From Clavibacter capsici (GTDB lineage Bacteria > Actinomycetota > Actinomycetes > Actinomycetales > Microbacteriaceae): a DNA stretch of 64,000 nt. The first letter of the stretch is position 1. Each line of letters starts with the position of its first letter. The stretch covers positions 186,001 through 250,000 of the forward strand of contig NZ_CP012573.1 of the NCBI RefSeq assembly GCF_001280205.1, written 5' to 3'. The notes beneath the pieces are model-generated. The model saw nothing but the letters and a program-made list of their open reading frames with translations. It was not told the origin of the DNA and did no database searches. Positions 50,027-56,225 of the stretch are shown one piece after another. A program made the position numbers and the translations under genes.

Positions 50027-51097
50027 ATGGATCCCCACGCGAACGCCCCGCGCCCCGTCGGCATCGGCGGGCTGGCCGTGACCCTCGTCTCCGCGAGCGA
50101 CCTCCGCGCCGCCTCGTCCGTCGCGGCCGCCGCCGTCGGCGCACCCGAGACCGAGCCGCCCGCCGTGGTCGAGGCGCCGGACGGCGACAGCGGCGACCTC
50201 GGCGCGGACATCGCCGACGGCCTCATCGCGGACGCCGACGACGGGCGCACGGGGCTCGCGGTCGTCGCGCTCGAGCCGGCCGCGGATCCGCTCGAGGTCG
50301 CGCTGGTGCTGGAGCACGTGGTCGAGGCGCGGCATCCCGGGGCGACGCCCATCGGGATCCTCGACGTGGTCGCCGTCTCATCCGTCGCCGAGGTCCGCGA
50401 CGTGCTGCTCGACCCGGACGACGACGACCGGCCGTTCGACGACGCCGAGCGGCTGGCGGCGCGCCTCGAGTGCGCGAGCGTCGTGGTGCTCGACGGGTGG
50501 GATCCGGCCTGGTCGTCCCCGGACGCGCGTCGCGTCGTCGCCCTGCTCGCGCTCCTCGCCCCGGCCGCGCGCGTCGTGCCCGTCGGCGACCGGGCGTCGC
50601 TCGCGTCCGCGCCGCTGCGGATCGGCCGGCAGCGCGCCCGCCGCCTCGCCGCGGGCATGGGCTGGCAGCGGGCGCTCGCGGGCGTCGCCCCGGCCGCGTC
50701 GCCCGAGGGGCTGGGCGTGCACGTGTTCCGCGATCCGCGCCCGTTCCATCCGGGCCGTCTGCACGCGGCCGTCGCGCGCGACCTCGTGCCCGGGCCCGTC
50801 GGCCGCATCGTGCGCTCCCGCGGCCTCGCGCGCCTCGCGTCCCGGCCCGCGACGGTGGGCTCGTGGGCGACCGCGGGCGACGTGCTGCGGCTGGACCCGA
50901 CGGCCATGGCCAGCTGGGATGCGGAGTCGCCGGCCGGCCAGGAGATCGCCTTCGTGGGGGAGCGGCTCGACGGGGCCCTGCTCGACCGGATCCTCGGCGC
51001 CTGCCTGCTCGAGCCCGACGAGCTCGTGGCCGGGCCCGACGCGTGGCACGGCTACGCGGATCCGTTCCCCGCCTGGGACACCGAGCACCGCCACTGA
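50027..51097 (+). CDS. CobW/COG0523-like protein lacking the GTPase P-loop
   Basis: A 356-residue protein. The C-terminal part (about 229-340) is a clear CobW C-terminal domain: GVHVFRDPRPFHPGRLHAAV, GRIVRSRGLARLASRP and FVGERLDGALLDRILGACLLEPDEL. COG0523 zinc chaperones begin with a GxxGxGKT P-loop; here the N-terminus (GIGGLAVTLVSASDLRAASS) has none, and the CxCC metal motif is also missing. It cannot be a normal GTPase and may be a regulatory or scaffold form. A Zur-type box just upstream supports a zinc-limitation role. Confidence 0.8.
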   Translation: MDPHANAPRPVGIGGLAVTLVSASDLRAASSVAAAAVGAPETEPPAVVEAPDGDSGDLGADIADGLIADADDGRTGLAVVALEPAADPLEVALVLEHVVEARHPGATPIGILDVVAVSSVAEVRDVLLDPDDDDRPFDDAERLAARLECASVVVLDGWDPAWSSPDARRVVALLALLAPAARVVPVGDRASLASAPLRIGRQRARRLAAGMGWQRALAGVAPAASPEGLGVHVFRDPRPFHPGRLHAAVARDLVPGPVGRIVRSRGLARLASRPATVGSWATAGDVLRLDPTAMASWDAESPAGQEIAFVGERLDGALLDRILGACLLEPDELVAGPDAWHGYADPFPAWDTEHRH

Positions 51098-51109
51098 GGC
51101 GGGCGCCGG

Positions 51110-51763
51110 TCAGGCCGCGTCCGCGACCACCCGGCCCTCCTCGAGCCGGACGACGCGGTCGGCGTCGGCGAGCACGGCCGGGTCGTGGGAGACGCACGCG
51201 ACGGCGACGCCGCGGTCGGCCTCCGAGCGGAGGATCGCGCGGATCCGCTCGGCGCTCGCCGCGTCGAGCCCGGTGGTCGGCTCGTCGAGCAGCAGCAGCC
51301 GGGCGCCGCGGGCGAGCCCCTGCGCGAGGAGCGCGCGCTGGCGCTGGCCGCCGGAGAGCGCGCCGAGGGGCTGCGCCGCGAGCGACGCGATGCCGAGGCG
51401 GTCCATGGCGTCGTCGACGGCGGCGCGGGCGTCCGCGTCGAGGCGGCGCCACCGGCCCGCGCGTCCCCACGCGCCCACGGTGACGACGTCGCGCACGGTC
51501 ACGGGCAGGTGGTCGGGCACGGCGGCGCGCTGCGGCACGAAGGCCGCCTCGGCGACCGCGGTGCGCGTGCCGGACGTCGGGACCCGGGTGCCCGCGACCA
51601 CCTCCAGCAGCGTCGACTTGCCGGCGCCGTTGGGGCCGGCGATCGCCGTCAGGGTGCCGGGATCCAGGCGCAGGTCGACGCCGTCGAGGGCGCGTCGGTC
51701 GCCGAACGCCACGTGCACGGCGTGGAGGAGCGCGGCGGGATCACGGGGCGCGGGAGGGGGCAT
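51110..51763 (-). CDS. aztA: AztA, zinc ABC transporter ATPase
   Basis: A 217-residue ATPase energising the zinc importer. Walker A GPNGAGKST, Q-loop FVPQRAAVPD, signature LSGGQRQR, Walker B LLLLDEPTTGLD and H-loop CVSHDP are all intact. Unusually it is divergent from its permease rather than in line, the Zur-type box in the 56-base gap serving both. An ATG at 51781 would add six residues and abut the Zur box; 51763 is preferred. Convergent with the CobW-like gene, 12 bases apart. Confidence 0.9.
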   Translation of the reverse strand: MPPPAPRDPAALLHAVHVAFGDRRALDGVDLRLDPGTLTAIAGPNGAGKSTLLEVVAGTRVPTSGTRTAVAEAAFVPQRAAVPDHLPVTVRDVVTVGAWGRAGRWRRLDADARAAVDDAMDRLGIASLAAQPLGALSGGQRQRALLAQGLARGARLLLLDEPTTGLDAASAERIRAILRSEADRGVAVACVSHDPAVLADADRVVRLEEGRVVADAA

Positions 51764-54979: not shown

Positions 54980-55013
54980 GCGCCCGCGATCACCCACACA
55001 GAAGGAACGACAC

Positions 55014-56225
55014 ATGCGCACCCCCCGCCTCCGACGGACCGGCATCGCCGCCGTCACCCTGGGCCTCGCCGCGACGCTCGCGGCCTGCTCCACCCCGGCT
55101 CCCGAGGGCTCCCCGTCCTCCGACGCGGCCGCCGGATCCGGCGAAGCAGCCGGACCCCGCGTCGCCGTCTCGTACGAGGGCGGCATCCTCGTCCTCGACG
55201 GCAAGACGCTCGAGACCGTCTCGGACCTCGACTCCGAGGAGTTCACCCGCCTCAACCCCGCGGGTGACGACCGGCACGTCATGGTCACGATGAGCGAGGG
55301 CTTCCAGGTGCTCGACACCGCGGCCGGCAGCGCCGACGAGGCCGAGCTCACCGACACGGTGTTCCCGGCGGACACCCCCGGCCACGTCGTCCGCCACGCG
55401 GGCAAGACGATCCTCTACGCCGACGGCACGAGCGACACCACGGTCTTCGACACCGCGGCCCTCTCCTCCACCGACGGCATGCCCGAGACCGAGACCATCG
55501 AGGGCGTCGAGGCGCACCACGGCGTCTCGATCGTCCTCGAGGACGGCACCTTCCTCACCACGGTCGGCAACGCGGACGGCCGCAACGGCGTCGAGGTCCG
55601 CGACGCGTCCGGCGCGGTCGTCGCGAAGACGGACCAGTGCCCCGGCGTGCACGGCGAGGGCACCGCGGCCGGCGAGGCCGTCGTCTTCGGCTGCGAGGAC
55701 GGCGCGATCCTGTACTCGGACGGCGAGATCACCAAGCTCACCGCGCCCGACCAGCCGTATGGCCGCATGGGCAACGCCTACGTGAGCGAGACCAGCCCGA
55801 TCGTCGTCGGCGACTACAAGTCCGACCCGGACGCCGAGGGCTACCTGCTCGAGGCCGTCACGCTGATCGACACCGAGGCGAAGAGCCTCCGCGTCGTCGA
55901 CCTGCCCGAGGGCGTCGGCTACACCTTCCGCGACGTCGCGCGCGGCCCGGACGACATGGCCTACATCCTCGGCTCCGACGGCGCGATCCACGTGCTCGAC
56001 CCCGCGACCGGCGAGCTGACCGACTCCTTCCCCGTCGTCGAGCCGTGGGAGAGCCCGGTGGAGTGGCAGGACCCGCACCCCGCGATCGTCGTCGCCGACG
56101 GCATCGGCTACGTGACGGAGCCGGCGTCGAAGGAGGTCCACGCGGTCGACCTCACGACGGGCGAGGTGCTCTCGAGCACGACCCTCGAGGTCACGCCGAA
56201 CGAGATGGCGGTCGCCGCGGGCTGA
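55014..56225 (+). CDS. aztD: AztD zinc metallochaperone, canonical-like copy
   Basis: A 403-residue lipoprotein (LAACS lipobox) with a seven-bladed-propeller repeat pattern (GGILVLDGKTLETV, LNPAGDDRHVMVTMSEGFQVLDTAAG). It keeps HVVRHAGKTILYADGT, VEAHHGVSIVLEDGT, CPGVHGEG and WQDPHPAIVV, which are typical of AztD, but where others have an HxDHxHYY element this one reads AAGSADEAELTD. That element is present in the copy at 52821, so the two look complementary. Ribosome site GAAGGA. Confidence 0.85.
   Translation: MRTPRLRRTGIAAVTLGLAATLAACSTPAPEGSPSSDAAAGSGEAAGPRVAVSYEGGILVLDGKTLETVSDLDSEEFTRLNPAGDDRHVMVTMSEGFQVLDTAAGSADEAELTDTVFPADTPGHVVRHAGKTILYADGTSDTTVFDTAALSSTDGMPETETIEGVEAHHGVSIVLEDGTFLTTVGNADGRNGVEVRDASGAVVAKTDQCPGVHGEGTAAGEAVVFGCEDGAILYSDGEITKLTAPDQPYGRMGNAYVSETSPIVVGDYKSDPDAEGYLLEAVTLIDTEAKSLRVVDLPEGVGYTFRDVARGPDDMAYILGSDGAIHVLDPATGELTDSFPVVEPWESPVEWQDPHPAIVVADGIGYVTEPASKEVHAVDLTTGEVLSSTTLEVTPNEMAVAAG

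Follow-up and report, generated by a model that had tools for sequence, protein, structure and literature searches.

We analysed a 64,000-nucleotide stretch of the Clavibacter capsici genome (NCBI RefSeq assembly GCF_001280205.1, contig NZ_CP012573.1, positions 186,001 to 250,000; the whole stretch is called the window below), which encodes a zinc ATP-binding cassette (ABC) importer of the AztABCD type with two AztD-related lipoproteins, here named D1 and D2. Alignment with characterised AztD showed that D1 has the predicted ligands of the hairpin zinc site (site 2) only and D2 those of the pore zinc site (site 1) only, beside one AztC, one AztB and a Zur-box-like operator (Table 1). We consider it reasonably likely that this is an AztABCD importer whose metallochaperone was divided by reciprocal loss, with D1 acting as the zinc donor to AztC and D2 as a store or buffer. 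No description of a split AztD was found among the listed titles and abstract beginnings of open-access papers, subscription papers and preprints being outside this search. The divided AztD of Clavibacter and many actinobacterial relatives is a natural experiment on the purpose of each site.

Zinc sites of D1 and D2

Two zinc sites are given for AztD of Paracoccus denitrificans (PdAztD) in PMC6689063. Site 1 lies in the pore and is formed by H124, H167 and H218; site 2 lies on a hairpin and is formed by H99, H102 and D104 together with the C-terminal H408; the disulfide is C214-C231. This ligand numbering was also recovered from our alignment of the D1 profile with the structure. H117, H120 and H122 of D1 correspond to H99, H102 and D104, and the motif DHVDHFHYY is site 2. 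H124, H169 and H213 of D2 correspond to H124, H167 and H218, and the motifs GHVV, EAHHGV and CPGVHGEG make up site 1. In the window D1 all three site-1 His are missing, with GEPGPGMVV in place of EAHHGV and CPDPAGTI in place of CPGVHGEG. The site-2 hairpin is missing from the window D2, which reads DTAAGSADEAEL there. Both proteins retain the two Cys.

An earlier note on this DNA, made from the letters alone, had reported that the first copy has DHVDHFHYY and lacks CPGVHGEG and EAHHGV, and that the second copy has these two and lacks the HYY motif. Both statements agree with the encoded positions and the aligned places, and each motif it cited holds ligands of one of the two zinc sites seen in AztD crystals (PMC6689063). 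Its description of one locus holding aztA, aztB, aztC and two AztD-like genes is correct as to the genes (the AztA, AztB and AztC equivalog models of NCBIfam all scored above cut-off in the window), but the range it gave starts with a CobW_C gene, and aztA lies behind that gene.

Conservation of the divided sites

Protein classes (D1, D2 and unpaired AztD) were assigned by profile score, and ligands were counted in rows of more than 300 residues, which dropped one D1 and three unpaired fragments from the 112, 111 and 56 proteins of the three classes. The fetched loci were selected among search hits, not drawn at random; of the longer class list of single loci, only 40 were included. Site 2 (H99, H102 and Asp or His at 104) was complete in 110 of 111 D1, a count that is partly circular, because membership of D1 was decided with a profile that was built from D1 and includes the motif. 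Site 1 was complete in one D1, and at least one site-1 His was present in four; this loss is not circular, and neither are the D2 counts. All 111 D2 (from 110 loci) had a complete site 1, whereas site 2 was complete in none and two or more of its ligands were present in none. The D1 exception L069 is split over two reading frames. The proposal of the earlier note that the copies may have divided the binding sites is supported by these counts.

Among 53 unpaired AztD, of which two are proteobacterial (L139 and L140), site 1 was complete in 51, site 2 in 50 and both in 48, with five exceptions (L257, L279, L265, L277 and L124). The earlier note raised the possibility that canonical AztD might not have the missing motifs either; the 48 proteins holding both rule this out. 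A second set of 80 named loci, which are the 80 best among at least 587 and were selected on the D1 motif (the count of that motif is thus given by construction), had D1, aztC and D2 in 80/80. In this set D2 showed site 1 in 80/80 and site 2 in 0/80, and D1 showed site 1 in 0/80.

The pattern is more than chance, because it recurs in reciprocal form in 111 loci. Misannotation, pseudogenes or sequencing error would be a trivial explanation, and a few broken copies were seen: L069, the D1 of G474 and of G515, each in two frames, and the D2 of G621, with one in-frame stop. Against this, almost all of the 111 loci that show the pattern have intact open frames, and it also holds in 80/80 named loci; the survey rules such an artefact out, and we regard its probability as negligible.

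The site-2 motif of D1 is nearly constant as HxDHxHYY, and Y123 and Y124 are each found in 106/111 D1, compared with 17/53 and 31/53 unpaired AztD. Another column, that of His43, is His in 106/111 D1, 0/111 D2 and 3/53 unpaired AztD, and our guess is that His43 substitutes for the fourth ligand of site 2 in D1. In Paracoccus the N-terminal His motif is reported to have no role in transfer (PMC7463823). Both disulfide Cys columns are retained in 111/111 D1 and 111/111 D2 of the alignment, the bond itself being predicted. Mean column identity was 35% and 36% for D1 in two alignments against 59% and 51% for D2, where the 51% alignment includes unpaired AztD rows besides D2.

Homology of D1 and D2 to AztD

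The window D2 scored above the cut-off of NF038015 (NCBIfam "zinc metallochaperone AztD") and matched the solved structure 6cmk with E 1.4e-24 by phmmer. D1 scored far below that cut-off (Table 1), and 65 of 70 D1 matched NF038015 at E 0.01. As a single query, the window D1 found no solved structure at E 0.01. The D1 family profile matched the solved AztD structures 6cmk (E 2e-26) and 6ck1 (E 1.6e-25), and its alignment with the D2 profile extended over 372 columns with a probability of 99.9. Because of these profile matches D1 is counted as a distant homologue of AztD by sequence comparison, and an origin of D1 unrelated to AztD is ruled out by them. Neither window protein was above any Pfam family cut-off; 17 of 70 D1 weakly matched PQQ_2.

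Distribution

Nine of 18 genomes of the same genus have D1 and D2, and the other nine gave no match. The AztD model was matched in 74/299 genomes of the family sample and in 109/393 of the class sample. Of 80 loci (the window and 79 others from genus and family), 69 showed D1, aztC and D2, and 11 had a single AztD-like gene or fragment. D1 was counted by hand in 51/393 class genomes (49 with one strong match and 2 with D1 in two frames). AztD of the other kind accompanied it in 49 of these 51, also by hand count, the exceptions being G425, where the contig ends, and G642. The split is found in Microbacteriaceae, Nocardioidaceae, Nocardiaceae, Micrococcaceae, Dietziaceae and Streptomycetaceae, and these six named families rule out a peculiarity of Clavibacter.

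D1 was also found in 18 of 72,556 plasmid records, all from Streptomyces, where it is annotated as "hypothetical protein" in 14 and has no feature in 4. The gene order is unchanged in S. clavuligerus and S. anulatus, whose D1 is named "hypothetical protein" and whose D2 bears the name "zinc metallochaperone AztD". One record titled Vibrio cholerae strain 35D (L351) carries an actinobacterial-type D1-aztC-D2 locus, so this assembly is probably mislabelled or contaminated.

Gene order, fusions and operator

The order aztB-D1-aztC-D2 with aztA on the opposite strand was found in 100/111 D1 loci. Of the 11 others, six have AztB joined to D1 and one has AztC joined to D2 (see below), and the remainder are on short contigs or are incomplete loci. 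D1 and aztC overlap by 4 nucleotides in 86/110, as in the window. D1 of the window starts with GTG; a possible alternative start is the ATG at 52758, which would overlap the stop of aztB.

In six loci (L230, L231 and L234-L237; all of one actinobacterial family group, f14, and from two genera) AztB and D1 are read without an intervening stop, with D1 fused behind the permease, and in one case (L065) AztC and D2 are in a single open frame, which could reflect a lost stop or an error. These joined frames, and the lower conservation of D1 compared with D2, would fit with D2 as the working chaperone through a new transfer route and D1 as a docking protein or scaffold of the permease, whose His triad does not serve transfer. 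We think this improbable: few parts of D1 are as constant as the triad (110/111), and the site needed for transfer is the one lost from D2.

The sequence TGANAANNNTTNTCA, which forms the core of the Zur motif of actinobacteria (PMC5472717), was detected in the aztA-aztB region exactly in 58/105 loci and with at most one mismatch in 91/105. Base shuffles gave means of 0.0 (exact) and 0.08 (at most one mismatch) loci. Among 2307 other blocks from these loci, 36 had an exact occurrence and 75 one with at most one mismatch, which exceeds the shuffles. D1 and D2 might also serve different metals or conditions and not cooperate; single-site proteins can differ in affinity, and another ZnuA-type protein is encoded in the genome. 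This is very improbable, as most loci have a single aztC with D1 and D2 on either side of it, all behind a single Zur-box-like operator.

Evolutionary history

A tree of 227 rows was made with a quick method and is drawn with a midpoint root. D1 occupied one side of a branch with a Shimodaira-Hasegawa-like approximate likelihood ratio test (SH-aLRT) support of 99. In one locus (L240, from G545) D1 holds both sites and D2 is without site 2; this D1 is sister to, and apart from, the other 87 D1 in the tree, so that L240 is apparently a transitional locus by its sequence. D1 probably lost site 1 once, as judged from the tree.

D2 did not form a single clade. The trees require four changes, but the starred branches of one of them force only two, and three changes of site-2 presence are needed when L257 and L124 are left out. 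A single D2 clade was mildly rejected by the approximately unbiased (AU) test (p 0.035) on 44 rows; these were selected by thinning once the larger tree was known. A longer loop without the His triad is retained in 22/111 D2; for example, the D2 of L075 reads GTWTEDGSSY where the canonical L119 reads GTWTEPHGDHTHSY. Perhaps D2 lost site 2 more than once. Comparison of D1 presence with site-2 loss gave two independent pairs on starred branches, which are too few for significance.

AztC and the proposed roles of D1 and D2

It is reported that AztD mutated to lack site 1 loads AztC normally, while AztD lacking site 2 fails (PMC6689063). Because the published mutants transfer zinc only via site 2, D1 is probably the zinc donor to AztC, and D2, the protein annotated as "AztD", is probably a store. 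In the proposed mechanism, D1 would act as a natural site-1-less AztD that hands zinc to AztC near the permease. D2 would be a natural site-2-less AztD, passing no zinc directly to AztC, and might serve as a high-affinity zinc store or buffer at the surface. Single-site mutants bind zinc at 1.3 and 0.1 nM, compared with 0.7 and 54 nM for the wild type, and the authors of the structures could not assign a role to the conserved site 1 (PMC6689063). Negative cooperativity between the two sites is reported for the joint AztD, and the division may free both sites from it.

The AztC of split loci has the ligands His, His, His and Glu in 109/110 cases, and in the window the set by alignment is H68/H135/H202/E279. 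In Paracoccus AztC the D-loop and its three His are required for transfer from AztD (PMC7463823; PMC7731109).

Several observations weigh against D1 as donor and D2 as store. The D-loop is without His in 101/110 split-locus AztC, the window included; docking must therefore differ, and the published mechanism cannot simply carry over. D1 lacks the C-terminal His that is a site-2 ligand in PdAztD (0/111 in the last six residues), whereas such a His is present in 30/111 D2 and 20/53 unpaired AztD; His408 itself is conserved in only 68.1% of known AztD (PMC6689063). Three unpaired AztD (L124, L257 and L277) have no site 2 and no D1 in their locus, and the genomes of L124 (G180) and L277 (G676) gave no D1 match; the genome of L257 (G400) holds a second AztD, L256, with both sites. 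The open frame of L065 joins AztC to D2 and not to D1, and the circular part of the D1 site-2 count belongs here as well. The loss of the D-loop His is not specific to the split, because the low-scoring AztC beside single actinobacterial AztD (L250, L267 and L276) also lack them.

Another way to combine the two proteins would be a dedicated relay on the actinobacterial surface, in which the pore site 1 of D2 captures zinc, the hairpin of D1 docks in the D2 pore and takes it over, and D1, positioned at AztB and in some loci fused to it, loads AztC. The D1 hairpin would then have replaced the D-loop of AztC, whose His these AztC lack. We retain this relay because in the Citrobacter koseri AztD crystal site 2 of one chain sits in the pore of the next chain, with a bridging His, a contact which the authors themselves regard as a crystallisation artefact (PMC6689063). 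The relay would also agree with the unusual constancy of the D1 hairpin (HxDHxHYY), with the loss from AztC of the His-rich loop modelled as entering the pore, and with the co-occurrence of D1 and D2 in nearly all D1 genomes. On the whole we hold it possible but rather unlikely.

The placement of the two sites on separate neighbouring proteins in many genomes suggests that each site is worth keeping alone, and the pair makes the purpose of site 1 directly testable. By analogy with the mutants, it points to the unnamed protein D1 as a zinc donor. It also suggests that the annotation "zinc metallochaperone AztD" in such actinobacteria falls on proteins without the zinc-transferring site. The fusion of AztB with D1 gives a hint of the donor's place of action.

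Features of the locus and neighbouring genes

Table 1. Features of the divided AztD locus, with positions in the window
Feature	Position	Strand	Evidence
CobW_C (COG0523-type) protein, neighbour of aztA, outside the split proper	50027..51097	+	PF07683, 50.3 bits
aztA, zinc ABC transporter ATPase, divergent	51110..51781	-	NF040873, 243.2 bits (cut-off 220)
Zur-box-like palindrome TGATAAGCGTTCTCA, aztA/aztB intergenic	51783..51797		identical to TGANAANNNTTNTCA
aztB, zinc ABC permease	51820..52761	+	NF040871, 341 bits (cut-off 280)
D1, AztD-related lipoprotein, predicted zinc site 2 only	52821..54056	+	NF038015, 64.8 bits (cut-off 400); family-profile match
D1 lipobox cysteine Cys21	52881..52883	+	invariant across 70 aligned D1
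D1 His43, conserved N-terminal His, guessed candidate fourth site-2 ligand	52947..52949	+	106/111 D1
D1 site-2 motif DHVDHFHYY (H117, H120, H122)	53166..53192	+	alignment, ligand counts
D1 CPDPAGTI, where site-1 His218 is lost; disulfide Cys retained	53496..53519	+	alignment
aztC, zinc solute-binding lipoprotein	54053..54979	+	NF040870, 381 bits (cut-off 350)
D2, annotated-type AztD lipoprotein, predicted zinc site 1 only	55014..56225	+	NF038015, 476.9 bits (cut-off 400)
D2 site-1 ligand His124 (in GHVV)	55383..55385	+	alignment, ligand counts
D2 EAHHGV, site-1 ligand His169	55509..55526	+	alignment, ligand counts
D2 CPGVHGEG, site-1 ligand His213 and disulfide Cys209	55638..55661	+	alignment, ligand counts

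In the CobW_C protein the Pfam match is confined to the C-terminal domain, and no Walker A motif was seen by eye at the expected GTPase domain; it may be a pseudo-GTPase. Its gene is adjoined by one for an Lsr2-like protein (49589-49930, minus strand; PF11774, 45 bits). Two tandem genes on the plus strand (46502-47059 and 47340-47876) encode small secreted-type proteins that are alike by eye. Elsewhere in the same genome (about 3015434-3018424) there is the second ZnuA-type gene with a FUR-family gene about 2 kb away, likely a separate ZnuABC-Zur system.

Comparison with known systems

Pneumococcal histidine triad proteins PhtA and PhtD carry an HxxHxH motif. The D1 profile weakly matched two pneumococcal histidine triad chains (E 0.059 and 0.06), which is insignificant alone; the HxxHxH triad of D1 is like that of PhtA/PhtD over a short local stretch, and the remainder is unrelated. 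PhtD is cited as supplying zinc to a solute-binding protein (PMC7463823).

In Corynebacterium glutamicum, which matches the AztD model in the profile search, the similar cluster cg0040-cg0043 is under Zur control (PMC2823685). As in the present locus, a secreted protein is encoded next to a zinc ABC transporter, in divergent orientation and with a single Zur site in between. One secreted protein is listed there, compared with two here.

The nearest known proteins are AztD of P. denitrificans (6ck1) and C. koseri (6cmk and 6n01), with which D1 and D2 are homologous across the eight-bladed AztD propeller, having the same ligand positions and adjoining aztABC. D2 is a member of the NF038015 family by score and D1 is not. 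Characterised AztD has the two zinc sites in one protein, whereas in the present locus they are divided between D1 (site 2) and D2 (site 1); compared with PdAztD, His replaces Asp104 in site 2 of D1, and the C-terminal His is absent. By their ligands D1 resembles the site-1-less AztD mutant and D2 the site-2-less one (PMC6689063). Unlike those mutants, D1 and D2 are natural and co-encoded, the hairpin of D2 is shortened or gone and not just mutated, and the D-loop of their AztC differs.

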